Source: a virus
Virus record (IMG/VR): IMGVR_UViG_3300021957_003133
Location: 51,467-115,466 of that record
DNA: 64,000 nucleotides
Direction: 5' to 3' (one strand)
Positions 9,525 through 58,963 of this stretch are shown one piece after another. Made by a program: the position numbers and the translations under genes. Position 1 is the stretch's first letter. Each line of letters begins with the position of its first letter. The notes under the pieces were generated by a model that worked only from the letters and a program-made list of their open reading frames with translations, was not told the DNA's origin and searched no databases.

Positions 9525-10728
9525 GAAAATATGTATGCTACCCTGGATCAGTATCGAAACATCACCTACTGGTACAGCACGTCCTTGCTGTCTGGCTAAG
9601 GATGAAATAACAAAACCTAACGGTGAAAAATATAAGTTAAAAGAAAATACATTAGAAGAAATTTATCATTCAGACTATATGCAAAATCTAAGACAGGAGT
9701 TTTTAGATGGAAATAAACCAGAGACTTGTCAACGCTGTTGGGATGAAGAAGCCGCAGGGCGTACCAGCAAACGTGTTAACAGTCAACTACGTCTAGGACA
9801 ACACTACAAGAAGATTGATTTTCATAATACTGATCCTGATCAACTTTGGTTTTTAGATCTTAAACTAGGAAACATATGTAATTTAAAATGTCGTATATGC
9901 GGAAGTTGGTCAAGTTCAAAGTGGGCAAAAGAAGAAGTAGCATACGTTGACAAGATATGGAAAGGCGATCCTAACTATAGAAGGAAAGAACACCTAGCAT
10001 TTACATATCTCAAAGACGGTGCTTGGCCTCGCGAAAGTATTGACTTTTGGGACAACTTAAAAACACTACTACCTAATATCAAATACTTTGAATTTACTGG
10101 CGGAGAACCTTTCTTGATCAAACAACATTTTGATCTACTAGAATATGCTGTTGAAAAAGGCTATAGTAAAAACATTGAAATACATTACAATACCAATGGC
10201 ACACAGTTTCCTGAGTCTGCAGAGTTGTGGGACAATTTCAAACATGTAGAAATAGCATTCAGTATTGATAATACAAATGAACGTTTTGAGTATGAACGTT
10301 ATGGTGCCAATTGGCTAGAAGTACAAGAGAATATTAAAAAGTTTACAGCTATGCGTAGTAGTAAGATATCAACACAGCTCTGTACTACAATGAATATACA
10401 GAACGTCTACTATCTGCCAGAGCTGTGTGAATGGATCAATACACAGCAATTTGATTTCTTGTTCTTTAATATGTTGCACGATCCTTGGCACATGTGCGTC
10501 AGTAAGATGACCCCGCAAGCACAGAAATTAGTTATAGATAGATTGACTAATCATAACTTTGATCCTAGACACAAGATAGAAGTTATGCGTATAGTTAAGT
10601 TCATTGAACAAGGTGAAGGCAGTGACGGTATAGAGTTTTTAAGACAGATGCAGAGGACCGATGATTATAGAGAACAAAGTTTCATTGACACACATCAAGA
10701 GATAGCTAAGGCAATGGGCTATGAGTAA
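9511..10728 (+). CDS. Twitch-type radical SAM enzyme 4
   Basis: 405 residues. It has Cys8-Met-Leu-Pro-Trp, Pro-Thr-Gly, Pro-Cys26-Cys27, Cys73 and Cys76 before the radical SAM motif Cys123-Asn-Leu-Lys-Cys127-Arg-Ile-Cys130 and Phe-Thr-Gly-Gly-Glu-Pro. The start at 9511 overlaps the upstream stop. It lacks the long N-terminal extension of enzyme 3. Same inferred class: radical chemistry on an unknown substrate, with an N-terminal auxiliary-cluster domain. Confidence 0.85.
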   Translation: MSLPKKICMLPWISIETSPTGTARPCCLAKDEITKPNGEKYKLKENTLEEIYHSDYMQNLRQEFLDGNKPETCQRCWDEEAAGRTSKRVNSQLRLGQHYKKIDFHNTDPDQLWFLDLKLGNICNLKCRICGSWSSSKWAKEEVAYVDKIWKGDPNYRRKEHLAFTYLKDGAWPRESIDFWDNLKTLLPNIKYFEFTGGEPFLIKQHFDLLEYAVEKGYSKNIEIHYNTNGTQFPESAELWDNFKHVEIAFSIDNTNERFEYERYGANWLEVQENIKKFTAMRSSKISTQLCTTMNIQNVYYLPELCEWINTQQFDFLFFNMLHDPWHMCVSKMTPQAQKLVIDRLTNHNFDPRHKIEVMRIVKFIEQGEGSDGIEFLRQMQRTDDYREQSFIDTHQEIAKAMGYE

Positions 10729-11212
10729 TATAGCATTAGGATGTAGCCATACCTACGGTGTAGGAGTAGAAAAAGATGAAGCTTGGCCTAATCTACTTGG
10801 GCTAGTAAATTATGGAGTTCCTGGGTGTAGTACTGATTTAATTTGTCGCACCCTGCCTAAGATTTTAGAGAAAGAACAACCAGACATTGTGTATATACTT
10901 TGGCCTGATTGGACAAGATTTGAATATCGTAAAGATGGAGAATGGATTCAATCACATCCAACAGACAGAAACAGAATTGAATTTATGGAAAGCCACCCAG
11001 AAGAATGGCTACGAGAAAATTTTAAACAGCAGGTAGCACGAGTAAACGAATTGTGTAAAGGTATAAAAGTTAACGCAATGACATTAGATGATTTGATCCC
11101 TTTCATTGACAATGCTGATATGTGGCCGCTCAGTAAATTAGGGCACCACTATGCTCCTGAATGGCACCATTGGGTGGCAGAGATATTTGAGAAACTGAAT
11201 GAAGCAACCTAA
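10721..11212 (+). CDS. Short SGNH-hydrolase-like protein
   Basis: 163 residues. Block I reads Ala-Leu-Gly-Cys-Ser9-His-Thr-Tyr-Gly, the GxSxT-type variant of the GDS motif, and block II is Gly-Val-Pro-Gly-Cys-Ser. The C-terminal Gly-His-His-Tyr-Ala-Pro-Glu-Trp-His-His could supply the catalytic His, but the Asp usually three residues before it is not evident. It is shorter than most SGNH esterases (~200 residues). It overlaps both radical SAM neighbours, so it probably acts on the same product, for example in acyl-group transfer or removal. Confidence 0.6.
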   Translation: MSNIALGCSHTYGVGVEKDEAWPNLLGLVNYGVPGCSTDLICRTLPKILEKEQPDIVYILWPDWTRFEYRKDGEWIQSHPTDRNRIEFMESHPEEWLRENFKQQVARVNELCKGIKVNAMTLDDLIPFIDNADMWPLSKLGHHYAPEWHHWVAEIFEKLNEAT

Positions 11213-12503
11213 GAATAGACCAGAAACGCTGTGTATGGCTCCGTGGACTCATACTTACCTATCGCCACAGACTGAACGTAGAATGTGCTGTGCTAGTCGT
11301 GAGGATGCACAATCATTTGAGCAGTATATAGATACCAAAGCTGGCACAGGCAAATACCAACCAATCACTTTAGAAAAACACTGGAATTCAGACCATATGA
11401 AATCAGTGCGTAAACGCATGATGGCTGGAGAAACCTTAAAGGAATGTGCCGTATGTAACGATAAGCTGTTGAATACTGATGTTTACCGTAGTTATTTCAA
11501 CCGAATGTTTAGCGATAAGTATGATAGTATATGGGACACTACAGATGATACGGGCTACACCACAACAAAGCCTGTAAGCTGGGATTATAGATTCAGCAAT
11601 CTCTGTAACTTTAAGTGTCGCACGTGCGGTGACATGTTGTCAAGTGCATGGGAGTCAGAGCAAAGACAGCATAACACTATCAATTGGGATAATCCTAGAA
11701 ACAATTGGATGAAACCCGACATTAGGAAACAGATATCTGAGTTTCAGGACAATCAAATTGAGAAAGAGTTCGCAGATGCTGTAGAATCTCATCAAATTGA
11801 GGAAGTATATTGGGTTGGTGGTGAGCCATTGATGTACGATCAACACTGGAGATACATGAAACGTATCGTTGATTTAGGAGATGGGAAAAATGTTTACGCT
11901 AGATACAACACAAATCTTAGTCGCATCAATTATCGCGGTATCAACCTCTATACTGATATTCTATCTAGGCTACAGGATTGGCAAATATGTGCAAGCCTTG
12001 ATGGTACAGGAAGAATTGGAGAATATATCAGGACAGGTCTCAACTATCAAACGTGGGTTGAAAACTTTAAGGAAGGTCTTAAGGGAGTTACTAACGATCG
12101 TCAAATGAGAATAGACTTTACACTTACCTTACCGGGTATGTTTGAGGTTAAAGAGATGGACAAGCTAGCTTATAATTTAGATAGTGAGATATTGGCCAAA
12201 GTAATATTCAGTTTCACACCAGACATCATTATGAGTCCGTTAGCACTGCCAAGGAAACTATTAGAAGAGTGGATTGATGATATATTAGAATCCAAGCTAT
12301 GTAAACCTGTACTGATAGATATGCTTACCCAACTAAAAACAAGACCTACGTTCGAAGAACAATGGCCTGATACCTATCAAGAAAGTCTTGCAAAAGGCAA
12401 GCGTCGTGTGTTACAATTAGAGAGTATACGTAAAGATGAATTTACTTTAGCGGATATTTTAAAATCAAGGAAAGAAGTATATGAGTGGTATCAATCAATC
12501 TAA
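11199..12503 (+). CDS. Twitch-type radical SAM enzyme 5
   Basis: 434 residues. Cys12-Met-Ala-Pro-Trp, Cys30-Cys31 and Cys83/Cys86 precede the core motif Cys136-Asn-Phe-Lys-Cys140-Arg-Thr-Cys143; Val-Gly-Gly-Glu-Pro follows. The start lies within the end of the SGNH-like gene and the end overlaps the next gene. It is the fifth member of this family in 7.2 kb. Confidence 0.85.
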   Translation: MKQPKNRPETLCMAPWTHTYLSPQTERRMCCASREDAQSFEQYIDTKAGTGKYQPITLEKHWNSDHMKSVRKRMMAGETLKECAVCNDKLLNTDVYRSYFNRMFSDKYDSIWDTTDDTGYTTTKPVSWDYRFSNLCNFKCRTCGDMLSSAWESEQRQHNTINWDNPRNNWMKPDIRKQISEFQDNQIEKEFADAVESHQIEEVYWVGGEPLMYDQHWRYMKRIVDLGDGKNVYARYNTNLSRINYRGINLYTDILSRLQDWQICASLDGTGRIGEYIRTGLNYQTWVENFKEGLKGVTNDRQMRIDFTLTLPGMFEVKEMDKLAYNLDSEILAKVIFSFTPDIIMSPLALPRKLLEEWIDDILESKLCKPVLIDMLTQLKTRPTFEEQWPDTYQESLAKGKRRVLQLESIRKDEFTLADILKSRKEVYEWYQSI

Positions 12504-14435: not shown

Positions 14436-15067
14436 AATTACTAACAGTAGGAGATAGTTTTACTTACGGTGAAGAGCTTGTAGATATAAACAATGCTTGG
14501 CCTTACCTACTAGGTAAACAGATAGACTACGAAGTTACTAATCTAGGAAGTCCAGGATGTAGTAATGCCCGTATGATTCGCAATGTTATAGAAAATGCAG
14601 ACAAGCATGATTTAATTATCATTGCCTGGAGTCATTTTGCTAGATTAGAAGTATCAGATGAGAATGGTACTTATGATCTTTGGCCAGGTGGGTCGGGAGT
14701 ATTCTTTACTGGAGAGTTGAAGTATAGGAAAGAACTAATAAACTATGTAAACAGACACCACAATGATGAATATTTGTATAATCAATACACAACTAATATT
14801 GTGCTAGTACAAAAATATTTAGAATCTAAAGGCAAGCGTTACATCATGATGGATACGTTTGGAAATCATCAAGACAAACAAAGACAGTCTAATGGTTTAA
14901 TCAGTCAAGTAAACGATCAGTATTATATTGGGTGGCCAACAGAAAGCATGATGGAATGGACCTATAAAACACCACAAGGTCCAGCAGGACATTTTTTAGA
15001 AGAAGGACATCAAAAAGTAGCAGAAAAAATCAATGAATATATTAGGAATATCGGCTGGGTTTCATGA
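14432..15067 (+). CDS. SGNH-hydrolase-like protein
   Basis: 211 residues, close to the normal length of SGNH esterases. Block I is Thr-Val-Gly-Asp-Ser-Phe-Thr-Tyr-Gly (Ser at residue 8), block II Leu-Gly-Ser-Pro-Gly-Cys-Ser-Asn, and the C-terminal Gly-His-Phe-Leu-Glu-Glu-Gly-His offers the His. Asp at His minus 3 is missing. It shares this layout with the proteins at 10721, 13541 and 53741. Its 3' end overlaps the carbamoyltransferase gene by 35 bp. Confidence 0.7.
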   Translation: MKLLTVGDSFTYGEELVDINNAWPYLLGKQIDYEVTNLGSPGCSNARMIRNVIENADKHDLIIIAWSHFARLEVSDENGTYDLWPGGSGVFFTGELKYRKELINYVNRHHNDEYLYNQYTTNIVLVQKYLESKGKRYIMMDTFGNHQDKQRQSNGLISQVNDQYYIGWPTESMMEWTYKTPQGPAGHFLEEGHQKVAEKINEYIRNIGWVS

Positions 15068-16523
15068 TGCTGGCATGAGTTGTGTGAGTGATGGTGAAAT
15101 TTTATTTGCCGCACACAGCGAACGTTACAGTAGACAAAAACATGATAGCAAACTGTGCAGTGAAATGCTGTTTGATTGTTTGTCACGAACCGGCTTACCT
15201 GATGTTATTGCCTATTACGAAAGACCCTGGGTTAAAAAAACTAGACAACTGTATGCAGGGCAATGGAACTCTTTATGGTCAGATTGGTCAGTGCGTAGCA
15301 TGATCAATGAGATTGATATAGAAGGGGCTTTAAAACATGTACCCATAAAAACTTATAATCATCACCTGTCACATGCGGCCGCTGGCTTTCAAACATCACC
15401 ATACAAAGACAGCACAGTTGTAGTCATTGATGCCATTGGGGAATGGGACACTATTAGTATATGGGACGCAAGATACGATAGTCAAGGGCAAGCAACATAT
15501 AAAAAATTATGGGGCCAAAAGTATCCACATTCAATTGGGTTAATGTATTCAGCGTTTACTAAAGAAGTTGGACTACGTCCTTTAGATGAAGAATACATTT
15601 TAATGGGAATGGCCGCATACGGGCAAAGTCATTTTAAAGACGCATTTAAAACAGTGTTGTTAGATGAACCCACCAGTTTAACATTTAGACATAATCTACA
15701 TCTTGGGTTACCAGATGGTGGTGAAGGTGGCTATGGAGAAAACTTTGATGTAGCCGCTGGGGCACAAGAACTGGTAGAAGAACTTATCAATGAAGTAATA
15801 CGCATATCTAAAAAATTAGGTATAAGCAAGAACTTAACTTATATGGGTGGTGTGGCTCTAAATTGTTCAGCCAATAGAGACCTAGGACAGTATTATAATA
15901 ATATATGGATTATGCCTAATCCAGGAGATGCTGGCTCAAGTTTAGGTGCCGCGGCATTAACATACGGAAAACAATTAAATTGGAAAGATGCTTATTTAGG
16001 ATATGATATCAAAGGTGAATACCCAGTTAAAGATTTGTTAACAGAATTATTAGAAAACAAGATAGTAGGTGTTGCTAACGGACCTGCAGAGTTTGGTCCT
16101 AGAGCTTTAGGCAACAGAAGTTTACTAGCAGATCCAAGAGGGCCAGAAATAAAAGATCAAGTAAACGAAATTAAACGTAGACAAAAGTTTAGACCATTTG
16201 CTCCTGTTATCTTAGAAGAATACGCCAACGAGTATTTTCAAATGCCTTCGGGTTTTCCTACTAGCGATTATATGCAGGTAACAGCCTTATGCAATTTTCC
16301 TAAACAATTCCCAGCAATTATCCATCACGACGGAACTAGTCGTGTACAAACAGTACCTAAAAATTCACGCAGTGGTATAAGACAATTACTAGAAGCTTGG
16401 CATGTATGGACAGGATGTCCTATGTTACTTAATACTAGCCTTAATATTAGAGGAGAACCAATGGTAAACAGTCGCAGTGACGCAGAAAGATTCCAAGAAC
16501 ATTATGGGATTCGTGTGTTATGA
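15033..16523 (+). CDS. Carbamoyltransferase, NodU/CmcH family
   Basis: 496 residues, somewhat shorter than the usual 550-600. The N-terminal actin-like (Kae1-type) domain begins Ile-Leu-Gly-Ile-Ser-Ala-Gly-Phe-His-Asp-Ala and carries the metal site His-His-Leu-Ser-His-Ala-Ala near residue 110. The C-terminal domain has the hallmark Glu-Phe-Gly-Pro-Arg-Ala-Leu-Gly-Asn-Arg-Ser and Ala-Asp-Pro-Arg. The family uses carbamoyl phosphate and ATP to O-carbamoylate sugars or antibiotic scaffolds. In this operon a carbamoylated glycan or peptide is the likely product. Confidence 0.9.
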   Translation: MNILGISAGFHDAGMSCVSDGEILFAAHSERYSRQKHDSKLCSEMLFDCLSRTGLPDVIAYYERPWVKKTRQLYAGQWNSLWSDWSVRSMINEIDIEGALKHVPIKTYNHHLSHAAAGFQTSPYKDSTVVVIDAIGEWDTISIWDARYDSQGQATYKKLWGQKYPHSIGLMYSAFTKEVGLRPLDEEYILMGMAAYGQSHFKDAFKTVLLDEPTSLTFRHNLHLGLPDGGEGGYGENFDVAAGAQELVEELINEVIRISKKLGISKNLTYMGGVALNCSANRDLGQYYNNIWIMPNPGDAGSSLGAAALTYGKQLNWKDAYLGYDIKGEYPVKDLLTELLENKIVGVANGPAEFGPRALGNRSLLADPRGPEIKDQVNEIKRRQKFRPFAPVILEEYANEYFQMPSGFPTSDYMQVTALCNFPKQFPAIIHHDGTSRVQTVPKNSRSGIRQLLEAWHVWTGCPMLLNTSLNIRGEPMVNSRSDAERFQEHYGIRVL

Positions 16524-30932: not shown

Positions 30933-32015
30933 TTATTCCCATCCTATTTTCTCCCAGGGTACGTTTTTATTACCAAAGTGTCCGTAAACACAGTTCTCAC
31001 TATAGTTATTATACTTGAATAAATCAAATCTGTCAATGATTCCTAACGGTGTTAAATCAACATTGGATCTAATAAACTTTTCTATAGAACGATTATGCCC
31101 ATTTGATTCTATGTATATTGATGTAGGTTCTTTAACACCAATAGCATAACTTAACTGTATTTGACACCAGTCAGCCATTTCACTAGCTACTACATTTTTT
31201 GCTAGCCAACGAGACATATAAGCCGCCGAACGATCTACTTTAGTTGGATCCTTACCGCTAAATGCGCCTCCACCGTGTGGTGCCCAACCTCCATAAGTAT
31301 CTACGATAATTTTTCTACCTGTTAATCCCGAATCTCCATCTGGACCACCTACTACAAAGTTACCAGTAGGATTGAGATGCCATACAGTATCATCATCTAC
31401 CAGATGCCCTAACACTGATTGTGCAATCAGTTTTGTTTCTTTTCTAGCCTCTTCACAATCGCCTTCAGTGTGTTGAGTGCTTATTACCACTTGGTCGATA
31501 CGCTGTATTTGATCACCTCTATATTCAACACTGACTTGACTTTTAGCATCTGGCAAGAATATATCATTGTTTTGTCTTGCTTGCTTTAGTCGTTTAAGTA
31601 TCTCATGGCTGTAATAGATAGGTGCAGGCAAGTATGCTTCATTATCTCTATTAGCATATCCAAACATAATACCTTGATCACCTGCCCCAAAATCGTCTGT
31701 ACCTAAGGCAATGTCAGCTGATTGGCTATGTATATGATTGTCTATTTCTAATGTATTCCAATGGAATCCTTCTTGTTCATAACCAATCTTTTTTACTGTA
31801 TCTCTAACTATTTGATTAACATCAACAACATTAAAGTTTTTAACTTCACCAGCTAGTGTTACGTGATTTGTTGCTACTAATGTTTCAATCGCTACTCTTG
31901 TTGTGCGATCACCTTCTGTTAACCCAGCATCTACTAAGGCATCGGATATCTGATCTGCTACTTTATCTGGATGTCCGTCTGATACTGATTCACTTGTAAA
32001 TATATATTTGTCCAA
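30933..32015 (-). CDS. metK: S-adenosylmethionine synthetase
   Basis: 360 residues (bacterial MetK ~384). Glu-Ser-Val-Ser-Asp-Gly-His-Pro-Asp-Lys (residues 9-18), Gly-Ala-Gly-Asp-Gln-Gly and Gly-Gly-Ala-Phe-Ser-Gly-Lys-Asp-Pro-Thr-Lys-Val-Asp-Arg-Ser are the ATP/methionine-binding blocks. It makes SAM, which the window's seven radical SAM enzymes, methyltransferase-like proteins and SpeD-like enzyme would consume. It ends next to the Lys-rich gene and starts 1 bp after queE. Confidence 0.95.
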   Translation of the reverse strand: MDKYIFTSESVSDGHPDKVADQISDALVDAGLTEGDRTTRVAIETLVATNHVTLAGEVKNFNVVDVNQIVRDTVKKIGYEQEGFHWNTLEIDNHIHSQSADIALGTDDFGAGDQGIMFGYANRDNEAYLPAPIYYSHEILKRLKQARQNNDIFLPDAKSQVSVEYRGDQIQRIDQVVISTQHTEGDCEEARKETKLIAQSVLGHLVDDDTVWHLNPTGNFVVGGPDGDSGLTGRKIIVDTYGGWAPHGGGAFSGKDPTKVDRSAAYMSRWLAKNVVASEMADWCQIQLSYAIGVKEPTSIYIESNGHNRSIEKFIRSNVDLTPLGIIDRFDLFKYNNYSENCVYGHFGNKNVPWEKIGWE

Positions 32016-32879
32016 TTATTTTCCCCAACTGTTTCCCCAAAGATCAACGTGTAATCTTGGGCTATAATTGTAGCCACGTTTCATACACTCGTCTGCTACA
32101 TTAAATTTATTATTTTCATATACTGATACAACACCACCTACAGGCATAATATATACTACACCTTTAAGTCCGGCTTCTCTATATGCTTTGACAGCACGAT
32201 CAACTTCGTCAAAGTCCTTAGGATTTTCAACTACAAACTTGAGATAGGTTGTGCCATACTGCTCATAGTCAGCAACAATCTCAGGCTTAACAGCATCTTC
32301 CCACTTCTCGCCACTAGCACTTAACTTAGCACTAACTGAAAATGTTATATCGCTGTGATAACTATCACCTCGTGCCTTACTCCAAGATTTCATATACTCA
32401 CCAAACTCTGGATGTATCTTTTGTGTGCCGTTAGTTTCAAATGTTATATTAATCAAATCTTTCATCTTGTCATTTTCTAATAACTCAGGAAAAGCACGTT
32501 GCCAGCCTAGTAAAGGTTCGCCGCCTGTAATTACTAAGTGTACATCATTACCGTTAGATTGTACCCATTTATTGTTTGGTGTTAGTTGTGTTAATCTATC
32601 TGCTACTGCTTCTGTCTGTAACATAGGTGACAAATGTTTGAATCTTGGATCCCATGATGCATAACTATCGCACCCTGTATCTACTAAAGGTAATCCTTCG
32701 TATTGATTAAATAGTTCTACTTTAACTTCGTCACGCTCTGTTGACAGTTCGCCTCTATTCATACCAAAGCCGCCACATGTGAAGTTACAACCAAATGTAC
32801 GCAAGAATATACTAGGAACGCCTACAAAACGTCCTTCGCCTTGTGCTGAATAAAATATTTCACTAATTTTAAGTTTCAT
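32016..32879 (-). CDS. queE: 7-carboxy-7-deazaguanine synthase (QueE), phage type with long cluster loop
   Basis: 287 residues. Ser-Ala-Gln-Gly-Glu-Gly-Arg near the N-terminus and Ile-Thr-Gly-Gly-Glu-Pro-Leu-Leu are QueE features. The [4Fe-4S] cysteines are Cys31, Cys35 and Cys70 (followed by Asp-Ser-Tyr-Ala-Ser-Trp), i.e. CX3CX34C instead of the usual CX3CX2C. The enzyme is a radical SAM ring-contractase converting the QueD product to 7-carboxy-7-deazaguanine. AAAGGCG ribosome binding site; promoter 23 bp upstream. Confidence 0.9.
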   Translation of the reverse strand: MKLKISEIFYSAQGEGRFVGVPSIFLRTFGCNFTCGGFGMNRGELSTERDEVKVELFNQYEGLPLVDTGCDSYASWDPRFKHLSPMLQTEAVADRLTQLTPNNKWVQSNGNDVHLVITGGEPLLGWQRAFPELLENDKMKDLINITFETNGTQKIHPEFGEYMKSWSKARGDSYHSDITFSVSAKLSASGEKWEDAVKPEIVADYEQYGTTYLKFVVENPKDFDEVDRAVKAYREAGLKGVVYIMPVGGVVSVYENNKFNVADECMKRGYNYSPRLHVDLWGNSWGK

Positions 32880-32901
32880 TTACGCCTTTCGTTAATAGTT
32901 T

Positions 32902-32930
32902 ATTATACACTTATTTAGGTCGTATGTCAA
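32902..32930 (-). promoter_or_regulatory. Sigma70-type promoter of queE-metK
   Basis: TTGACA (32925-32930), 17-bp spacer, perfect TATAAT (32902-32907). It should drive queE, metK and the following small gene and exonuclease genes. Confidence 0.87.
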
Positions 32931-33388
32931 TGTTCCCATGGAAAAACTATCCATTCATCTTTTTCTGATTTGTCTATTTCAGTAGCACAATAGTCTACTT
33001 CCTGACAGAAACCACTGGACAAGTTGTCAAATAATACAGCAAACTTAACATTATGTTGCGGAGTTTGATTTAACTTCCAATCATTGACGATCCAGTTAAG
33101 TGTTGCTCCAGTATCATTAATGTCATCTAACACTAATATTTTTTTGCCTTCACGTGCATCATCTTGCATCCATAGATTATCATCTGTGTCTATGTGATCT
33201 CTAAGACTAACCTTTAGTGCGTGCATCGGTATATCCAATCTATGACTCATATATACTGCTGGCATTAATCCTCCGCGAGTCAACCCAACTATATAATCGG
33301 GTCTAAAGTTATCTTTATACATTTCAAAGCTCACTCGATTGACATAGTCATCAATAGTGGGCCATCCTACGTAACGTTTATTATCCAC
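32927..33388 (-). CDS. Phosphoribosyltransferase family protein
   Basis: 153 residues. The PRPP-binding loop is Ile-Leu-Val-Leu-Asp-Asp-Ile-Asn-Asp-Thr-Gly-Ala-Thr-Leu. The N-terminal Val-Gly-Leu-Thr-Arg-Gly-Gly-Leu is the usual second block. The size fits Gpt/xanthine-guanine-type or similar salvage enzymes; which base is used cannot be told. The start lies inside the preceding gene's end (8-bp overlap). Confidence 0.85.
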   Translation of the reverse strand: MDNKRYVGWPTIDDYVNRVSFEMYKDNFRPDYIVGLTRGGLMPAVYMSHRLDIPMHALKVSLRDHIDTDDNLWMQDDAREGKKILVLDDINDTGATLNWIVNDWKLNQTPQHNVKFAVLFDNLSSGFCQEVDYCATEIDKSEKDEWIVFPWEH

Positions 33389-33707
33389 GGTATGCCCTTA
33401 TGTTTGATATTTTACCATCAACAAATGTAATTACATCAACCACTAACAGTGTATCTGTGTCGTCTATTAAAACACTGAGTTCAGCAGTTATAGTATCCAT
33501 TTCTTGGTATATTGCCAATGGAGTTACTTCGATAGTTTCTACTGCATCAAATATTGTTTGATTGGCCGCTAGTACATCTGTACGACCTTCTGCACTTGTT
33601 TCCCAATCACGTAAGACAACATCGTCTGTAAACATTGCATCAAGCCCATTGATATCTTTACTACTGAATGTAGTAAAATACTGTGTTGCTAACTCTTTTA
33701 ATTCCAT
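33381..33707 (-). CDS. SnoaL-like (NTF2-fold) protein
   Basis: 108 residues. Tyr-Phe-Thr-Thr-Phe-Ser-Ser-Lys-Asp ... Leu-Asp-Ala-Met-Phe-Thr-Asp-Asp-Val-Val-Leu-Arg-Asp-Trp is the SnoaL-like helix-strand start, and the C-terminus ends with Phe-Val-Asp-Gly-Lys-Ile-Ser-Asn-Ile-Arg-Ala-Tyr. Such small cone-shaped domains bind small ligands or act as isomerases or cyclases. Role here unknown. It directly follows the subtilase gene. Confidence 0.75.
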   Translation of the reverse strand: MELKELATQYFTTFSSKDINGLDAMFTDDVVLRDWETSAEGRTDVLAANQTIFDAVETIEVTPLAIYQEMDTITAELSVLIDDTDTLLVVDVITFVDGKISNIRAYRG

Positions 33708-33708
33708 A

Positions 33709-36700
33709 TTAAAAACTCCATTGTAAAGAAACTCCGACGATGTTATTAGTTTCGCCTTCTTGATTTAAGTAATTCAATTGATGTTCCCCATAAGTTACTA
33801 GTTCTAAATCACTATCATCACTTTTAAATTTATAATACATACCTACATTATATGCATTTACATCTGGTGACATATCAACTGAACTTCTATCATATGCTAT
33901 GCTACCATCTCTATAGTACCCAACTGGTACACTAACATCAACAGTACCTTCGTGTATAGTAACGGGCTGACTAAATGTAGTACCAATACTGTGTTCATCC
34001 ACAGTGTAGTCTAATCCTACATTCCAGCTGTATGATTGTGTGTCACTGACGTCAGTTACTAGTCCTGTTTTATTCATACCACTTTGTGTGTATCCATACC
34101 ACACACCCCCAAACATGCTTAGTCTCTTATTTAACTTCTGGGTACCAGTTATGTTAGTGTATGTGGTATAACTGTCTTCCATTTCACCTAAGGCACCATT
34201 AATTTCGTTACCCATCCAAGCTTGATCTTCGTTTAGCATACCAAAACCAACTCTTACTGATAAATCATTGGTATACTTTGTGGTGTGCCCAAATTCAAAG
34301 TTACCGACACCAGTGTCTTGATTCATTTTCATAGTCATATCAATAAATGATGTACCATCTTGATCTGTTGCTAAACTAACCTTGCTACTTGAAGTATAAT
34401 AATTTAGATTATCATATGGATTATGGTCTGTAAAGAACTGGCCTTTGCTTATTGGATTAAATGGTGTAGCTTTCTTTTTCTTAGTGTTACTTCCGTAACT
34501 CATGTCAACATAATAATCACGACCAAACTCATCAGTAACCATAACACTGCTTAACGCACCTACATCTGATAATCCGTCTGAACCACTTGCTAAAAATGAT
34601 CCACTTATAGGAATAGTTTTTCCATATCTACCATCTACAGGAATACCAACAACACCATATGGTCTGGTAGCCGCTTCTAAATCTAGCAGTCCAGCACCCA
34701 TTATGTCCTTATCATACCCTGGTAAATCTTTATTAGCAGTAGCAGTTAATAATTTAACGATATTACTACCGGTCATTAACGGCCATTGTTGATGTATAAT
34801 AGCAACAGCACCCGAAACAACTGCGGCCGCTTCTGATGTTCCTGTACCTATTACATACCCATCTCCACTGGTATGTCCTGGACTGTACATGTTGCCTGGT
34901 GCTAGTATATAAAAATCACTCATTCTATATGTGTCATTACAATTACCATCACTGGTAACATTGAACCCTTGGCATATATGTCCGGCCTTGTTACTGTAAC
35001 TAGCAACAGTACCTGCGTCAATATCATATGCACCAACTACTAGCATTTGTCCGTTCATATACAGTGAACCGTCTTCTCGGGTAGCATAGGCCATTGGAGC
35101 TGGATTTTCAGGAAATGCTAGCCCCGAGTTACCAGCCGAGACAACAACAACCATTTCACTATTGCCTAAAGCTGAAGACCATCTTTTAGGATCCTCGTTA
35201 TTATAAAATCCTGTGCTTCTTCTTCCGGTATGGTAATATTCTATGTATTTAGGATCACTGTTGCTCCAACTTCCATCTTTTAGTTGTACCCACTTACTTT
35301 GATAGTTATTAGAGTATCCTGCGTTGGCACTTATATTTGCTACAGTAGCATCTATACTAGCACCCCAAGCAATAGCATCTCTGGCTTGACTGAATCCGAT
35401 CCTACTACTATTAGTTACTTTGGCTATAGCTAGATCAGCGTCAGGGGCAACACCAACCATGCCAACACCATCTCTACTTGCTCCTGCGATACCAGCCATT
35501 TTAGTACCATGGCCGACATTGTCGATGATGTCCGTTTCCCCTCTAAGGAAGTTCTTTTTATCTGTTATCCTTCCTTTGAATTCATTATGTTCTTCATTGA
35601 TACCACTGTCAATGATAAGAATTTTACTGCCCTTACCTGTATACCCTCTATCCCAAGCGGATTGAGCTTTAATTGCACTTAAAAAGTTGTCATTTGTTTT
35701 ACCAGGAGCAAGATCATCAGCAATATATTCTCGTTCAAAATCTGTCCTAGTATCTACAACCTCTTCTTCAACAGGCTCTTCTACTGTAGTTTCTTCTTCA
35801 ACAAGCTCTTCTGTATCACCGTATACTGAAGCTAATAATCGAGCCTCCTCAGCTAACCTTGCATCTTCTTCTGCTTTTAATTCGGCTTCTCTGGCCGCTT
35901 TAGCATCTGCAACTTCTTTGGCCGCAATTTCTTCTGCTGTACGTACAGATTCTAATTCATCAGCAATACGTTTAGCCTCGGCTTCATCAGCAATACGTTT
36001 AGCTTCTAATTCATCAGCTATTCTTTTAGCTTCAGCGGCATCGGCTATTCTTTTTGCTTCTAGTTCGTCAGCAATACGTTTAGCTTCTAATCTATCGGAT
36101 TCTTCTTTAGCGATTCGAATTGCTTCGGCTTCGTCAGCTAGTCTTTTAGCTTCGGCTTCGTCAGCTAGTCTTTTAGCTTCTAATTCATCAGCTAGTCTTT
36201 TAGCTTCAACGGCATCAGCTAACCTTTTTGCTTCTAATTCATCAGCTATTCTTTTTGCTTCTTCTGCTAATCTAGCAACTTCTGCCAACCTTGCTATTTC
36301 TGCAAGTGCTAGTTCATCAGCTATTCTTTTAGCTTCAGCTTCTTCTGCTAATCTTTTAGCTTCGGCTTCTAACCTGGCAACTTCAGCTAATCTAGCCTCT
36401 TCAGCTATTCTTGCAAGCTCAGCTAATCTAGCCACTTCTGCTAAACGTGCTTCTTCAGCTACCCTTGCGATTTCAGCTAATCTAGCAACTTCAGCTAATC
36501 TAGCAATTTCATCTAAACGAGCAACCTCGGCCAATCTAGCAACCTCTGCTAACCGTGCTTCTTCAGCTAATCTGGCTTCTTCAGCTACCCTTGCAACTTC
36601 TGCTAACCGTGCTTCTTCAGCTACCCTTGCGATTTCAGCTAATCTAGCAACTTCTGCTAAACGTGTTTCCTCAGCTTTCAATCGGGCAATTTCAGCTAAT

Positions 36701-37053
36701 CTGGCTTCTTCTGCTAATCTAGCAACTTCGGCTTTTTCTAGTTCTTGTGCTATTTTTTCTGCTTTGGCTATGTCAGCTAGACGTTTGGCTTCAATGGCTT
36801 CTGAAGAGCGTAATATGCCTGGACTACTATAAGGATTGGGTATACCGTAGACTCTTTCAAGTTCTGCAGATTGATCATATTTAATTTGATCATCTTGTGC
36901 TTTTATTCTGGCTCGATACGCCTCTTTAGCGTCAATGACTTCCTGTTTGGCTTTGGCTATACGTTCAGCTTTAGTTAAAGCCTCTGCCTGTGACGGAAAG
37001 CTAGTTACGATACCAGCGGCTACTAAAACTGCTATTATCTGCTTGATTTTCAT
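33709..37053 (-). CDS. Secreted subtilisin-like protease with coiled-coil repeat and autotransporter-type beta-barrel
   Basis: 1114 residues from ATG 37053 (AAAGGG ~6 nt upstream). A signal peptide occupies ~1-25 (Val-Leu-Val-Ala-Ala-Gly-Ile ... Ser-Gln-Ala-Glu-Ala). Residues ~88-410 are long Ala/Arg/Leu/Glu helical repeats. The S8 domain has Asp~481 (Ile-Asp-Ser-Gly-Ile), His~514 (Gly-His-Gly-Thr) and Ser~741 (Gly-Thr-Ser-Glu-Ala-Ala), a full triad. The last ~260 residues alternate polar and hydrophobic, with many Tyr/Gly, ending Gly-Val-Ser-Leu-Gln-Trp-Ser-Phe, a terminal aromatic as in outer-membrane barrels. This is the layout of classical (type Va) autotransporter proteases. A bacterial gene acquired by the phage is the simplest reading; surface display on the infected cell is inferred. 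Confidence 0.85.
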   Translation of the reverse strand: MKIKQIIAVLVAAGIVTSFPSQAEALTKAERIAKAKQEVIDAKEAYRARIKAQDDQIKYDQSAELERVYGIPNPYSSPGILRSSEAIEAKRLADIAKAEKIAQELEKAEVARLAEEARLAEIARLKAEETRLAEVARLAEIARVAEEARLAEVARVAEEARLAEEARLAEVARLAEVARLDEIARLAEVARLAEIARVAEEARLAEVARLAELARIAEEARLAEVARLEAEAKRLAEEAEAKRIADELALAEIARLAEVARLAEEAKRIADELEAKRLADAVEAKRLADELEAKRLADEAEAKRLADEAEAIRIAKEESDRLEAKRIADELEAKRIADAAEAKRIADELEAKRIADEAEAKRIADELESVRTAEEIAAKEVADAKAAREAELKAEEDARLAEEARLLASVYGDTEELVEEETTVEEPVEEEVVDTRTDFEREYIADDLAPGKTNDNFLSAIKAQSAWDRGYTGKGSKILIIDSGINEEHNEFKGRITDKKNFLRGETDIIDNVGHGTKMAGIAGASRDGVGMVGVAPDADLAIAKVTNSSRIGFSQARDAIAWGASIDATVANISANAGYSNNYQSKWVQLKDGSWSNSDPKYIEYYHTGRRSTGFYNNEDPKRWSSALGNSEMVVVVSAGNSGLAFPENPAPMAYATREDGSLYMNGQMLVVGAYDIDAGTVASYSNKAGHICQGFNVTSDGNCNDTYRMSDFYILAPGNMYSPGHTSGDGYVIGTGTSEAAAVVSGAVAIIHQQWPLMTGSNIVKLLTATANKDLPGYDKDIMGAGLLDLEAATRPYGVVGIPVDGRYGKTIPISGSFLASGSDGLSDVGALSSVMVTDEFGRDYYVDMSYGSNTKKKKATPFNPISKGQFFTDHNPYDNLNYYTSSSKVSLATDQDGTSFIDMTMKMNQDTGVGNFEFGHTTKYTNDLSVRVGFGMLNEDQAWMGNEINGALGEMEDSYTTYTNITGTQKLNKRLSMFGGVWYGYTQSGMNKTGLVTDVSDTQSYSWNVGLDYTVDEHSIGTTFSQPVTIHEGTVDVSVPVGYYRDGSIAYDRSSVDMSPDVNAYNVGMYYKFKSDDSDLELVTYGEHQLNYLNQEGETNNIVGVSLQWSF
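35838..36795. repeat. Degenerate 15-48 bp tandem repeats coding a coiled coil
   Basis: About 320 codons made of variations on Glu-Ala-Arg-Leu-Ala-Glu-Val-Ala-Arg-Leu-Ala and Glu-Ala-Lys-Arg-Ile-Ala-Asp-Glu-Leu. On the plus strand the DNA reads as repeated GCTAATCTAGCAACTTC-like units. The first part favours the Arg-Leu-Ala-Glu type and the second the Lys-Arg-Ile/Leu-Ala-Asp type, so two successive expansions are likely. Length probably varies between strains through recombination. Confidence 0.85.
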
Positions 37054-37086
37054 CAAATACCCTTTGATTAATTAAGATACTAGTAT

Positions 37087-37115
37087 ATTATAACACCAAA
37101 CTGTTATAAAATCAA
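37087..37115 (-). promoter_or_regulatory. Sigma70-type promoter of the subtilase gene
   Basis: TTGATT (37110-37115), 17-bp spacer, perfect TATAAT (37087-37092), 33 bp before the ATG. The spacer ends TTTGGTGT, like the one at 25272. Confidence 0.8.
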
Positions 37116-37120
37116 GTATT

Positions 37121-37855
37121 TTATCTAGGAGCAAATTCTTGTTGTAGTTTAATATTATCCATAAACTCTTTCTTAGTAGCTGGATCGTCTTTGAATGCAC
37201 CTTTGAGTACAGTAGTCTGTGTTAGACTTGAATGTGCCATAACACCTCTATTTTCAACACAACCGTGTGTTGCTTGTACATAAACACCTAGGTGTTCTGC
37301 ACCTGTTGCTTTCTGTATCTCACGTACAATATCGTTTGCAAGTTCTTCTTGTAGTGTACCTCTGCTAGCACACCATTGTGCTATTCTTGTGTACTTTGAT
37401 AAGCCAATAAGTTTATCACTAGCAATAATACCAATGTACGCAGTACCTTTTACAGTCTGATGATGATGTGAACACATGCTTGTGAGTTCACTTCTGACTA
37501 CCAACATACCCTCATAACGATCATCGCTATCATTAGGAAATGCAGTTGCGTCTGGCATAGGTTCATATCTACCTGACATTATTTCATTGATATACATTTT
37601 AGCTAAACGTTTAGCTGTACCTTTTGAGTTTGGATCGTTGTGTCTATCAATCAATAATGAATCAAGTACACCTTCAAACTTGTTTGCGAGTTCATCTATT
37701 AGTATTTCTTTCTCACCATGATGAATGTGTTTTGAAATATTGTCACCTGCCCAATATCTGTCACCTGCTTTTTTAATTCTTTCTCTAATATCTTTACTGA
37801 CTGGTTGAGTACGTTGCTCAAGCTCTGACCAATCTATTCTGTTTTCTACTGACAT
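37121..37855 (-). CDS. folE: GTP cyclohydrolase I
   Basis: 244 residues. The zinc site is Ser-Met-Cys128-Ser-His-His131-His plus the Cys in Ala-Thr-His-Gly-Cys-Val-Glu. Gly-Leu-Ser-Lys-Tyr-Thr-Arg-Ile-Ala and Val-Tyr-Val-Gln-Ala-Thr-His are conserved. It makes dihydroneopterin triphosphate, the entry point for QueD/QueE and for folate. Slightly longer than the usual 185-222 owing to N- and C-terminal extensions. GGAG lies 8 nt before the ATG. Confidence 0.93.
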   Translation of the reverse strand: MSVENRIDWSELEQRTQPVSKDIRERIKKAGDRYWAGDNISKHIHHGEKEILIDELANKFEGVLDSLLIDRHNDPNSKGTAKRLAKMYINEIMSGRYEPMPDATAFPNDSDDRYEGMLVVRSELTSMCSHHHQTVKGTAYIGIIASDKLIGLSKYTRIAQWCASRGTLQEELANDIVREIQKATGAEHLGVYVQATHGCVENRGVMAHSSLTQTTVLKGAFKDDPATKKEFMDNIKLQQEFAPR

Positions 37856-54496: not shown

Positions 54497-54504
54497 TATT
54501 TATT
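54497..54504 (-). promoter_or_regulatory. T4-type late promoter octamer (AATAAATA)
   Basis: AATAAATA overlaps the stop codon of the upstream gene, 81 nt before the SGNH ATG. The 84-bp intergenic space also holds a short imperfect palindrome AGGAGCCTCCT (54456-54466) of unknown role. Confidence 0.45.
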
Positions 54505-55717
54505 GCTCTTTAGGTGGCGGAACGTACTCTACAGTTATTTTACCGTCTTTGAGTGTTACCTGTATCTGTCTGTATATTGTAGTTGGTAATCCATCTTGTC
54601 TATCTATTGCGTTTTCTACACTAATACTAAACACATTTTCTAAATCGCCTATGTATTGATTACGTCCGTCATCTTCCTCAATTTGTCTAGCTAGTTCACG
54701 CACTTCATCTACAGTTATATCAAGGGCACCGTAAACATTACCATAATATGCACTAGCAGAATCATTGTATTCTGTGTATGAAGGATAATCATCTTTGTAT
54801 TCACCTTCTTCATCAACGTAACCCTCGTCTCGAAGATACTCATAATACCCGTCATCGCTCATTTCCCAATCCATCATAACTTCATTTAAGAATTCTAAAC
54901 TCATCTGTTTAATTTCTTCACAGGCTTTCCTAAGTTCATCTTCATTAGGGAAAAATATTATACGTCCACCCAAGTCTGGGTCAACAGTTAGCCACCACTC
55001 TCTAAAGTCTTCACCGAAGCGTTCTATTAAATCTCCTGCGTCTACGTCACGATCCTGTTCGTCCATGTACTGTCCAGACTCTGGATGTACCTGATACTTT
55101 TCACCTTCGTATTGGGCTTTGGTAGGAAGTAAGATGTACATTGGGCCATCTCGATTGTATCTATCAAACATATTGTTACTGTCTGCGGCTGTACACCAGC
55201 GTGTGCCTTGTCCATAGTAGCAAGCGGCACTGGTATCTTCAGGCTGTATGACACGCACACCTGCGTCTTTATAAATTTCTTTTGCTTGACCTTTATCTCG
55301 CTGTTCCTTGCCTTCAGGTTCTTCATATTGATCAACTGCATCATAGAATGATTTTAAATCTTTAAATCTATTAAAGTCTGAGTGTTCAGGTTTAAGTAAT
55401 TTTTTAACTGCTAGAGTAGCAAACTTGGTTAGATAGTCACGCATTGTACTACCTATGTCTTCCCATTTGAGTAAACCGTTGGCATACATACGAGCAAGTG
55501 CCTGTGTATACTTTTTCTGTTTAGTAGGATCGCCCACTTCAATTTGATTTTTAAGTATCATCTCAGCGGCTTCTACAGGAGTTAAGTTGTCCTGTATATT
55601 TTTTCTAACAGCACCCGGAACAGTGTTATCAGCCATAGCAGTATTAACTAGCTTGGCGGCAAATGCCTGTGCTGTTTTTGATCTATCGTATTCTATTATA
55701 AAGTGTCTTGCTCTCAT
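54500..55717 (-). CDS. Cargo-type protein with Trp-Cys-Thr domain, paralogue of the gene at 56573
   Basis: 405 residues. The start Met-Arg-Ala-Arg-His-Phe-Ile-Ile-Glu-Tyr has an Ile-Ile-Glu cleavage-like site. The central domain (~150-230) reads Ala-Cys-Tyr-Tyr-Gly-Gln-Gly-Thr-Arg-Trp-Cys-Thr-Ala-Ala, then Tyr-Ile-Leu-Leu-Pro-Thr-Lys and Met-Asp-Glu-Gln-Asp-Arg. The same order occurs in the paralogue. The C-terminal part is acidic and unlike the paralogue. Domain function unknown to me. Confidence 0.7.
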   Translation of the reverse strand: MRARHFIIEYDRSKTAQAFAAKLVNTAMADNTVPGAVRKNIQDNLTPVEAAEMILKNQIEVGDPTKQKKYTQALARMYANGLLKWEDIGSTMRDYLTKFATLAVKKLLKPEHSDFNRFKDLKSFYDAVDQYEEPEGKEQRDKGQAKEIYKDAGVRVIQPEDTSAACYYGQGTRWCTAADSNNMFDRYNRDGPMYILLPTKAQYEGEKYQVHPESGQYMDEQDRDVDAGDLIERFGEDFREWWLTVDPDLGGRIIFFPNEDELRKACEEIKQMSLEFLNEVMMDWEMSDDGYYEYLRDEGYVDEEGEYKDDYPSYTEYNDSASAYYGNVYGALDITVDEVRELARQIEEDDGRNQYIGDLENVFSISVENAIDRQDGLPTTIYRQIQVTLKDGKITVEYVPPPKEQ

Positions 55718-55718
55718 T

Positions 55719-56573
55719 TTACTTCCTAAATATTGATACTACGATTGGGTATTCACCGTCACCCGCTATTAATTGTTCGTATGCTTTCTTACCTTGACGT
55801 TGTTCGTGATCACGCCATACTTCATCAATCACTGCATCTGGATCCTCACAGTAATCTTCGTCTGATTGACAATCATCAGTAAAGCCTTCAACGTGTACTA
55901 CCCAAGTGTTGCCTTTACTATCTTTAATCTCATCAACTGAAACGTCTTCTGGTGATCTTCCTTCAATCCACCTTTCTACTTCAGGTGGCAACGGCTTTTC
56001 TTCATCTTCATTTACTTGTTCATCCCAAGGTGTAACTAGTCCCCAACTGTCTGGATTTCTTTGTAGCGTATCTATGTTAATAAGACCATAGGGCTTAAAA
56101 TCTAAATCTATTAGATGACGTTCAAACCATAGTACTTCATCACCATAGCCTTCTGCGTTTTGTTCATCATTAGTAACATTAATAACTGCTGTTCCTTCGA
56201 CTTCTTTCTGTAGTTCCCATGCTTCTTCATCATCAATACCTAAGTAATCCATTACTTCATTGTCCATTGGTATTGGAACAGCACTAGGCTTAGGTAATCC
56301 ACCTCGTCTAATGTTATCAGCTTCTTGTTTACTAATGCCACGATACCAGCCAGCATCGTCCTCACCTTCTGCAACTACTTTTTTTAAATCGTGTTCAACA
56401 CCCTTAGATAAATCTTTTGTGTGATGCTTGTGTGGCAACGCAAATGTTTCACCGGTATCATCATTCTTATATACTTCGTGACTACCGTGTGCTCTTTCTT
56501 TATGAAAGTTATTCTTTTTTAATATCTTTTCTGCCTCACGATGTGACATTTCTTTAAATTCTTGATATCTCAT
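55719..56573 (-). CDS. HicA-like toxin domain fused to a possible ADP-ribosyltransferase-like domain
   Basis: 284 residues. After Met-Arg-Tyr-Gln-Glu-Phe-Lys-Glu, residues ~12-70 match the HicA mRNA-interferase pattern: Glu-Ala-Glu-Lys-Ile-Leu-Lys-Lys-Asn ... Gly-Ser-His-Glu-Val-Tyr-Lys ... Leu-Pro-His-Lys ... Asp-Leu-Ser-Lys-Gly. The catalytic-type His of Gly-Ser-His is present. Then Trp-Tyr-Arg-Gly-Ile-Ser ... Ile-Asn-Val-Thr-Asn-Asp ... Ala-Glu-Gly-Tyr resembles the Arg and STS regions of ADP-ribosyltransferases, weaker evidence. No HicB antitoxin is seen nearby. Confidence 0.6.
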   Translation of the reverse strand: MRYQEFKEMSHREAEKILKKNNFHKERAHGSHEVYKNDDTGETFALPHKHHTKDLSKGVEHDLKKVVAEGEDDAGWYRGISKQEADNIRRGGLPKPSAVPIPMDNEVMDYLGIDDEEAWELQKEVEGTAVINVTNDEQNAEGYGDEVLWFERHLIDLDFKPYGLINIDTLQRNPDSWGLVTPWDEQVNEDEEKPLPPEVERWIEGRSPEDVSVDEIKDSKGNTWVVHVEGFTDDCQSDEDYCEDPDAVIDEVWRDHEQRQGKKAYEQLIAGDGEYPIVVSIFRK

Positions 56574-57895
56574 TATGCTCTCTCCGGCTCCCCACCTACG
56601 TATCCTGTTACTGACATTGGATAACCATAACTATCTAACAGTTGGTTAATCGCTTTCTCATACTGTTCTTCAGCTAAACTACTCGTTTGAGCTTCATCTT
56701 CTATTCGTACCATACCTTTTAAGAATTTTTCTAATTTCTCAACTTCAGGCTCATTACTTAATTCCTCAGCCTTTTCAAAATCAACACTACTAACTGTAAG
56801 AACTGCTGATTCTGGTTCTTCGCCTAGTTCAGCATATGTTAAACCTAAACAATCATCACTTGTTGCGTCAAACCAACCGTAGGCTATGTATTCTGTACCT
56901 GCTAGATTTGCCCAACTGTTGCCTTTCATCATGTTCTTTTCAACTAACATGTCAATGGTACTACGACTAATCTCCCAGGTGTCTAATGAAGTTCCAGGTT
57001 GATTTAGACTTAGAGTATACATATCACCGTGCATTACACGATTATTAATTATCTTTGCATCAGTCTCTTTTTTCCACTCAGCATAATCTTCATCAGTCAT
57101 TAGTGCTGGTATAGTTTTACGTTTAGCCCAATCAGTTATTGTTTTAATATTACGTATTGAAGGATACTGTTCTAGTACCTTGTACATATCTACTTCACGA
57201 TCTTGCTCGTCCATAAACTGTCCACTTTGGAAATGGAACTGATACTTTTCACCCTCATACTTGGGTTTAGTAGGCATTATGATATACATGTCGCCCATCT
57301 TGTGATACTGATCAAACATATTGTTACTACGTGCCGCAGTACACCATTTAGTACCTTGCCCATAATAACAAGCCGCCGCTTTGTCTTTAGGCACTATAAC
57401 TCTAATCTCACTGTCACGATATATTTCACGACTGCTACCTCTGTCTGTAACAGGTGCTTCTAAGTCTTCTTCACTGTAATCTGCCATTGCTGTTAATAGA
57501 TTAACAGGCTGTTTCATTTGATTAATGTCTTTGTGTTCAGGCTTTAGTTTCTTTCTTAACTTGAGAGTCACATACTTTTCTAGTGCATCTCTCATTTTAC
57601 TCTTAATGTCTTCTAATGGAATAATTTCTTTTGAATACATACGGGCCAACCATTGACTGTATTCTTTATTTTTTGTAGGATCTCCCATTTCAATCTGAGT
57701 AAACACTTTGTTTAATAAATCTTGTTTGTCGTTAGGATGTAGTTCTTTCCAACTACCGCTACGTGAGTGTAAGTTCCATATATCTAAATCGGCACGAGGT
57801 TGCTTATCTCTCTGTAGTGCTTGTATGATTTTTTCACCATGCACCTGCTGAGTTTTTTCTCTGGAGTACTCTAAGATAAATTGTTTTGCTCTCAT
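56573..57895 (-). CDS. Cargo-type protein with Trp-Cys-Thr domain, paralogue of the gene at 54500
   Basis: 440 residues, starting Met-Arg-Ala-Lys-Gln-Phe-Ile-Leu-Glu-Tyr. The central domain has Ala-Cys-Tyr-Tyr-Gly-Gln-Gly-Thr-Lys-Trp-Cys-Thr-Ala-Ala, Met-Phe-Asp-Gln-Tyr, Glu-Lys-Tyr-Gln-Phe-His and Phe-Met-Asp-Glu-Gln-Asp. The flanks (helical N-terminal part, Leu/Glu-rich C-terminal part) differ from the paralogue. It overlaps its neighbours by 1-4 bp. A conserved Trp-Cys-Thr-Ala core suggests an enzymatic Cys, but this is inference. Confidence 0.7.
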   Translation of the reverse strand: MRAKQFILEYSREKTQQVHGEKIIQALQRDKQPRADLDIWNLHSRSGSWKELHPNDKQDLLNKVFTQIEMGDPTKNKEYSQWLARMYSKEIIPLEDIKSKMRDALEKYVTLKLRKKLKPEHKDINQMKQPVNLLTAMADYSEEDLEAPVTDRGSSREIYRDSEIRVIVPKDKAAACYYGQGTKWCTAARSNNMFDQYHKMGDMYIIMPTKPKYEGEKYQFHFQSGQFMDEQDREVDMYKVLEQYPSIRNIKTITDWAKRKTIPALMTDEDYAEWKKETDAKIINNRVMHGDMYTLSLNQPGTSLDTWEISRSTIDMLVEKNMMKGNSWANLAGTEYIAYGWFDATSDDCLGLTYAELGEEPESAVLTVSSVDFEKAEELSNEPEVEKLEKFLKGMVRIEDEAQTSSLAEEQYEKAINQLLDSYGYPMSVTGYVGGEPERA

Positions 57896-58626
57896 TTTTT
57901 AAATATATTTCCTTTTGTATCTTCGGCTATAACATGTACTTTGCCGTCGTATTTAAATTTTATATATGGATCCTGTGATATAGATATCTTAGTATCTGCT
58001 TGCATAATAATATATTCTTCTTCGTCAACCCAAGTAATAGTTTTAATAATCCATTCTGGTATATAACCGCCTGACTCTAAATCTTTCTGTAGTCCACTAA
58101 ACATTGGATGTTTAATTCTAGTTGTTTTATAACCTTCTTTATCTTTAAACAATATCTTACCTAGGTCTTTTGTCAATGCCGGATCATGTACATCCATGTA
58201 ACCTGAACAACCACCACTAGCTCTAATACCAGTTTTGTGTGTAAACAAGTCACCCATAGCTGTTTCTCCAACTATACGAACATAACTATCTGTTTCCATT
58301 CTAACACGTGTTGATATTTCAGTGTTTTGTGTTCTGTCTGTTAATTTAAATGTTGCTACATGTTGTACTGGATTAGCATCAATGACCAAGTAAAGTTTAA
58401 CAAAACGATCAGTATTAACAGTAATAGTTACAGGTACCTGAGCACCACTGGCCGCTCTTTTAGGACCCGATATTGTTAACTCATCATTTTTATCTAGTTC
58501 AACTGCTGTTCTAACACCAAACATTCTTTCTTGTATGTAAGGCCATAGATCAGGATTAAAATGTTTGTCGTCATACGCAAACACCTGACTTGTAAACAAC
58601 ATTAACGCTATTAGTAATAGTTTCAT
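57892..58626 (-). CDS. SoxYZ-like carrier protein, quinoprotein-dehydrogenase-associated type
   Basis: 244 residues from ATG 58626, right after the upstream stop. Signal peptide 1-17 (ending Val-Phe-Ala). A SoxY-like beta-sandwich contains Val-Pro-Val-Thr-Ile and Leu-Tyr-Leu-Val-Ile-Asp-Ala-Asn-Pro, and its carrier swinging arm is Ala-Ser-Gly-Gly-Cys140-Ser-Gly. A SoxZ-like domain follows (His-Pro-Met ... Ile-Pro-Glu-Trp-Ile-Ile). Fused SoxYZ carriers of this kind accompany PQQ-dependent dehydrogenases in the periplasm. Role in infection unknown. Confidence 0.8.
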   Translation of the reverse strand: MKLLLIALMLFTSQVFAYDDKHFNPDLWPYIQERMFGVRTAVELDKNDELTISGPKRAASGAQVPVTITVNTDRFVKLYLVIDANPVQHVATFKLTDRTQNTEISTRVRMETDSYVRIVGETAMGDLFTHKTGIRASGGCSGYMDVHDPALTKDLGKILFKDKEGYKTTRIKHPMFSGLQKDLESGGYIPEWIIKTITWVDEEEYIIMQADTKISISQDPYIKFKYDGKVHVIAEDTKGNIFKK

Positions 58627-58627
58627 A

Positions 58628-58963
58628 TTATGACTTTGCCTTATCAAATAGCATGGCTAATATCATAGCACCAATACCTGTGACTAATGCTTCTGTCCAC
58701 CACGCACCAAAGTGACTAGATACAAAGATTAAATCAGCGCCTGCTGTTGCAACTCCTGTAAGCCAAACTATAGTCCATTTGTTATCCAATTTTGGTATAA
58801 AACTTGCTAATAGGACAACTAGTCCTGCTATTGCTCCTGTCTTAGAAGCAACTCCAGCATGATATAAACTTAGTACACTCAAGTCACCTTGAACCATACA
58901 AACCATACAAGCTGTCCAAGCTTCACTAAACTTTTGAAACCATAGCTTAAATTTAATTTTCAT
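58628..58963 (-). CDS. Multi-span membrane protein
   Basis: 111 residues with about four hydrophobic segments (residues ~15-35, 43-58, 64-82, 88-105). TAAGGAG precedes the ATG. It is coupled to the SoxYZ-like gene by a 1-bp gap. No family recognised; a partner of the carrier or a membrane component of virion release are alternatives. Confidence 0.65.
   Translation of the reverse strand: MKIKFKLWFQKFSEAWTACMVCMVQGDLSVLSLYHAGVASKTGAIAGLVVLLASFIPKLDNKWTIVWLTGVATAGADLIFVSSHFGAWWTEALVTGIGAMILAMLFDKAKS

Follow-up and report, generated by a model that had tools for sequence, protein, structure and literature searches.

Analysis of 64,000 nucleotides of viral DNA (the window, bases 51467-115466 of a virus record of 115,466 bases) identified a phage gene whose product appears to be an exported, barrel-bearing and surface-directed protease of type V-like design, made in the infected Gram-negative cell. 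This reading, which is built on sequence comparison and structural models, is given a probability of about 60%. The features of the gene and of its immediate surroundings are listed in Table 1. The open reading frame on the minus strand starts with ATG at 37053 and stops at 33709-33711, and no other S8 match occurs anywhere in the record.

Table 1. Features of the protease gene and its surroundings, with positions in the window
Feature	Residues	Position	Strand	Basis or description
Whole protease gene	1-1114	33709..37053	-	Signal peptide, helical rod, S8 protease, linker, outer-membrane barrel
Sec-type signal peptide (MKIKQIIAVLVAAGIVTSFPSQA)	1-23	36985..37053	-	Sequence inspection; without lipobox cysteine
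Helical rod (331 residues)	85-415	35809..36801	-	Tandem repeats, salt-bridge excess
Subtilase	473-788	34690..35637	-	PF00082, E=3.5e-32, full profile 1-288
Linker (78 residues)	789-866	34456..34689	-	AlphaFold2, mostly low confidence
Short helices	867-882	34408..34455	-	DSSP H44-53 and H56-59 of the C-terminal model; candidate pore-filling linker helix
Outer-membrane beta-barrel	888-1112	33718..34392	-	AlphaFold2; 12-13 strand elements; Phe1114 ends the protein
GTP cyclohydrolase I (folE-like)		37121..37855	-	PF01227, E=1.1e-37; upstream neighbour in most relatives of the window's lineage
SnoaL/NTF2-like protein		33381..33707	-	PF12680, E=1.5e-13; downstream neighbour in most relatives of the window's lineage
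Sigma70-like site		37087..37115	-	TTGATT-17-TATAAT, TG before the second hexamer; ends 34 bases upstream of the start

Subtilase domain

Comparison of 17 aligned homologues revealed Asp482, His515, Asn642 (oxyanion) and Ser740 to be invariant wherever present. The PF00082 match, the triad and the oxyanion asparagine place the protein in family S8, and the complete Asp-His-Ser S8 domain that the earlier note had described is thereby confirmed. In the window's subgroup the usual GTSMAxP motif is replaced by GTSEAAA, a change that could bear on activity and that counts somewhat against the preferred reading. Cys694 and Cys705, the only two cysteines of the protein, are kept in all viral rows of the alignment; such a pair is consistent with a disulfide formed outside the cytoplasm, that is, in an oxidising compartment. 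The domain also matched the passenger structure of SSP (8e7f) in sequence, and a weak, partial match to NCBIfam EprS was found over the S8 part. A Foldseek search with a two-domain model returned subtilisins (TM about 0.86 by target), and since the listed neighbours were all subtilases, the barrel was modelled separately.

Signal peptide and helical rod

The Sec signal peptide proposed in the earlier note was found by inspection at the N-terminus, and a comparable peptide is present in all relatives with a complete N-terminus. The segment that follows is rich in alanine (about 29%) and glutamic acid (about 22%), the rest being mainly arginine, leucine and lysine. Its DNA consists of tandem units of 18, 27 and 54 bp, of which the 18 and 27 bp units give periods of 6 and 9 residues. 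Opposite-charge pairs reach a net value of 62 at i/i+3 and 52 at i/i+4 against about -2 +/- 8 in shuffled sequences, an excess of about 8 SD and 6 SD, respectively. No power was found at the heptad period of 3.5 residues in the rod; a strong 3-residue component was found instead. The missing heptad signal and the salt-bridge pattern of a single helix speak against a coiled coil. Thus, of the 320-residue coiled-coil repeat reported earlier the long repeat stands and the coiled coil is not supported, and a single-alpha-helix is the likelier form suggested by these patterns. At 1.5 A per residue such a rod could be up to about 50 nm long.

Two further matches in this region were set aside. The match to PF05403 (Plasmodium HRP) lies under the Pfam cut-off and is compositional, and the opposite-strand reading frame at 35687-36832 (381 amino acids) was attributed to the composition of the repeat. 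Most relatives lack the rod or have a short one, and in complete copies anything from a few residues to more than 400 separates the signal peptide from the protease. One phage relative (L036) carries a long repeat of its own, with a period unlike that of the window's rod.

C-terminal barrel

AlphaFold2 folded residues 824-1114 into an all-beta barrel (pLDDT 77.4, pTM 0.76), as the earlier note had expected, and not into a soluble fold. All listed structural neighbours of this model in VIA-align are outer-membrane barrels, with Z scores of 12-15, so that the barrel fold is well supported. The highest scores belong to the COG4313 channel (15.3), KdgM (15.1) and FapF (14.5), followed by the NalP translocator (14.0; rmsd 3.5 over 199 residues), EspP (13.2) and EstA (12.3). 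Porin-like barrels (COG4313 channel, KdgM) therefore score equal to or slightly above NalP, and the ranking does not separate a translocator from a porin. The alignment with NalP (1uyn) starts at residue 37 of the C-terminal model. Hydrophobicity alternates in many of the strands and fails to do so in some. The protein ends in LQWSF, in agreement with the Trp-Ser-Phe end noted earlier, and phage rows with a complete C-terminus end in phenylalanine or tyrosine, one phage type adding a histidine.

Profile searches of the barrel for PF03797 gave no Pfam match even at E=1, the control, a Salmonella plasmid S8 autotransporter, being detected at 4.9e-57; TIGR01414 likewise gave no match. Comparison by hhalign showed no relation to the barrel of the Salmonella EprS-type control (0.5%), but an S8 protein from Sphingomonas has a barrel that did match (probability 95.7, E=9.5e-9). 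Weak matches of the barrel profile to coronavirus spike S2 fragments among PDB sequences (E 0.005-0.9) were taken as chance. No beta-helix stalk is predicted between protease and barrel in the AlphaFold2 models.

The closeness of the barrel to porin-like channels as much as to autotransporter translocators, and the lack of a classical autotransporter signature, would also suit a barrel that is a mere outer-membrane anchor. The protease would then face the periplasm and degrade envelope proteins, aiding lysis or envelope takeover, and the rod would span or fill the periplasm. TolA is a periplasmic helical rod, and the composition of the window's rod recalls rods of this kind. However, an N-terminal passenger followed by a short helix and a C-terminal barrel is the order seen in type Va systems, and with little or no rod in most relatives, spanning the periplasm cannot be the core function. 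We consider a periplasmic protease unlikely and retain the surface-directed protease as the preferred reading.

Comparison with known systems

The subtilisin-like type Va proteins NalP, SphB1, SSP and EprS likewise have a signal peptide, an N-terminal S8 passenger, a helix and a C-terminal barrel. The phage protein has the classical type Va order of signal peptide, passenger and C-terminal translocator, together with the terminal aromatic residue, but its barrel is without the PF03797/TIGR01414 signature of the translocator. The type V design proposed in the earlier note accordingly holds for domain order and predicted barrel and not for membership of the PF03797 family. Group 15 of the subtilisin-like autotransporters has a beta-helix stalk of about 200 amino acids between protease and barrel (PMC9289746), where the phage protein has its short and mostly low-confidence linker. 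NalP and SphB1 carry an N-terminal lipid anchor, and these and similar subtilisin-like autotransporters process surface proteins, some doing so while held by a lipid tether (PMC9289746). The phage-encoded protein has no such anchor and instead has a variable helical rod ahead of the protease.

In unnamed alphaproteobacterial proteins with S8 domain and barrel (such as L043, L044, L054 and L045) both protease and barrel are homologous to those of the phage. Several bacterial versions have a lipobox followed by a Gly-rich sequence, whereas the phage signal peptides are without a lipobox. Phage porins and lysogenic-conversion proteins are predicted or known to alter the host outer membrane. N4-like phages encode proteins with a YadA-anchor domain, to which the same applies (PMC10654107). 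None of these three kinds has a protease passenger, unlike the phage S8 protein. PHROG 3677 and the Bacillus phage subtilases have the S8 catalytic domain in common with it, and its barrel is unmatched in deposited phages. A literature search of the open PMC set turned up no description of an S8 autotransporter encoded by a phage. The S8 autotransporter-like kind is known; what is new is that it is encoded by a phage, has a barrel of an unrecognised family, lacks stalk and lipid anchor and carries variable rods.

Relatives in phages and genomic setting

Three scans of viral contigs identified 34 loci on 33 contigs, with 32-100% identity by best segment. The signal peptide, the S8 domain and the barrel with its aromatic end are kept in all complete viral copies. 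Values of dN/dS were 0.08-0.16 for seven pairs, including 0.15 against L006 over residues 541-1114; by these ratios the gene is under purifying selection. In 50,697 deposited phage records tblastn found no match to the barrel, the matches being confined to the S8 region. The view that such a gene is rare in lytic phages therefore applies to the barrel in deposited records but does not extend to uncultured T4-like phages, in which the gene recurs. In a viral structure library, an S8 protein of an uncultured Caudovirales matched the barrel (TM 0.75), and another viral protein is named autotransporter beta-domain protein.

The record encodes a T4-type DNA polymerase (phrog_262, E=2.6e-193), nearest to those of the Rhizobiales jumbo phages Phosso and Atu_ph07 (47-52% identity). 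These relatives have genomes of 470-490 kb, which makes it probable that the record covers only part of a genome. Relatives of the window's lineage have a common gene order with folE, SnoaL, phosphoribosyltransferase, QueE-like and SAM synthetase neighbours. Seven other loci (L026-L030, L034, L035) have almost no neighbours in common with the window; among them L026, L028, L029 and L035 share a different arrangement, which includes helicase, primase and exonuclease genes, and make up a second T4-like lineage.

Because the contigs come from metagenomes and Alphaproteobacteria often carry homologues, the gene might be bacterial and the contigs chimeric or wrongly assigned. We find this explanation barely credible, given that independent contigs repeat the gene order along with the T4-like DNA polymerase and related genes, and that in the other lineage the protease lies beside phage helicase and primase genes. 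Virions of some phages include proteases or enzymes that digest surfaces, a precedent for a virion-associated protease that would act on the host surface during adsorption. The signal peptide and the outer-membrane barrel, however, suit export in the host and not assembly in the cytoplasm, and the gene is set among nucleotide-metabolism genes and not among tail genes; a virion-borne protease is thus very improbable.

Two loci (L037, 2927-4954; L038, 8340-10385) have the flanks of the window's lineage and a protease that groups with the L026-L035 lineage, which suggests replacement of the protease in place. In L025 (1-1365) a stretch of the linker region is duplicated within the protease reading frame, by assembly error or by real duplication.

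Bacterial relatives and origin

A first scan of genome contigs found no bacterial relative of the protein; a wider alignment then found some. The closest in genome contigs are two Hylemonella assemblies, with 44% identity in the S8 part, in addition to alphaproteobacterial assemblies. One Hylemonella copy adjoins branched-chain amino-acid transporter genes. With the nearest bacterial protein only 44% identical over the protease part, the recent transfer from a host raised in the earlier note is not borne out. Among sampled genomes, the barrel profile matched 43 of 289 in the class to which L044 belongs (Alphaproteobacteria) and 3 of 300 in the order that includes Hylemonella. This barrel family is common in Alphaproteobacteria and unrecognised by Pfam, and the secretion capacity of the class is therefore likely undercounted.

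In the maximum-likelihood tree the phage rows, Hylemonella and the alphaproteobacterial-type L043, L044 and L054 form one group (100/100), and Hylemonella is sister to the phage L036 (100/100). The tree and the bacterial matches make a bacterial origin of the gene likely. The relationships also require at least one additional phage-bacterium exchange, which for Hylemonella may have gone in either direction.

Expression

Sigma70-like sites occur in the region at chance level (57 against 52.0 +/- 6.7 expected). In L008-L018, L023 and L031 the protease starts about 10 bases after folE, and for most relatives the two genes lie too close together to leave room for a promoter. Promoter-like sequence was also found upstream of the protease in L020, L027 and L036. 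The promoter of its own that had been ascribed to the gene thus exists as a site but is not conserved. Because the protease starts directly after folE in relatives, its expression with the folE cluster is more likely, as far as gene arrangement indicates, and would probably be early or middle. The late promoter TATAAATA was looked for just upstream of the gene and was absent.

Proposed function

As a surface-directed protease, the protein would be exported by Sec with removal of the signal peptide, and the host assembly machinery would insert the barrel in the outer membrane, as in type V systems. The barrel, with the short helix in or near its pore, may then pass the protease and the N-terminal rod to the cell surface, again as in type V systems. 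The protease would stay attached or be freed by cleavage in the linker. Signal peptides kept across relatives, together with the retained cysteine pair, argue for export. Since neither PF03797 nor an EprS-type barrel was matched, secretion by the classical mechanism is proposed by analogy. We infer the passage to the surface, the activity, the substrate and the benefit.

The most likely use, put forward tentatively, is that the protease trims host surface proteins during infection, including phage receptors and adhesins, and so would limit wasteful re-adsorption or superinfection. A more extended scenario, on balance doubtful, is that T4-like phages took the S8 protease and translocator from Proteobacteria, lost the lipid anchor and added helical rods of variable form, arriving at a protease-based superinfection exclusion that had not been described before. 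The same anatomy would serve a surface-bound or released protease that feeds the infected cell or harms competitors or grazers and leaves phage receptors unaltered, and the window has metabolic-type genes, such as those for SoxYZ-like and SAM synthetase proteins. A short lytic infection, however, would give little time for extracellular food to pay, and nutrition or defence appears distinctly unlikely. Protease action on the host surface would suggest that lytic phages give the dying cell a secreted or surface-displayed enzyme, so that host takeover would reach the cell exterior, and it makes the gene a candidate through which uncultured phages may remodel the host surface.

Other genes in the window

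At 30933-37855 (minus strand) GTP cyclohydrolase I, a QueE-like radical SAM protein and a full SAM synthetase are clustered, as in 7-deazaguanine pathways. A SoxY-SoxZ fusion-like protein, of a sulfur-oxidation type, is encoded at 57892-58647 (minus strand; PF13501 E=4.5e-25, PF08770 E=1.6e-16). At least four radical-SAM proteins in a row (5311-12503, plus strand) are accompanied by a Nol-like carbamoyltransferase (15033-16523), and together they look like a surface-sugar or small-molecule pathway. A protein of 284 amino acids (55719-56573, minus strand) has a HicA-toxin-like N-terminus (PF07927 E=1.7e-8), and the proteins flanking it (54500-55717 and 56573-57895) have PHROG hits in common. 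A weak match to Peptidase_G2, the IMC autoproteolytic cleavage domain of a kind found in tail-spike-like proteins, was found at 71-1174 (plus strand). At about 18200 in the window, GC skew and gene direction turn from the plus to the minus strand.
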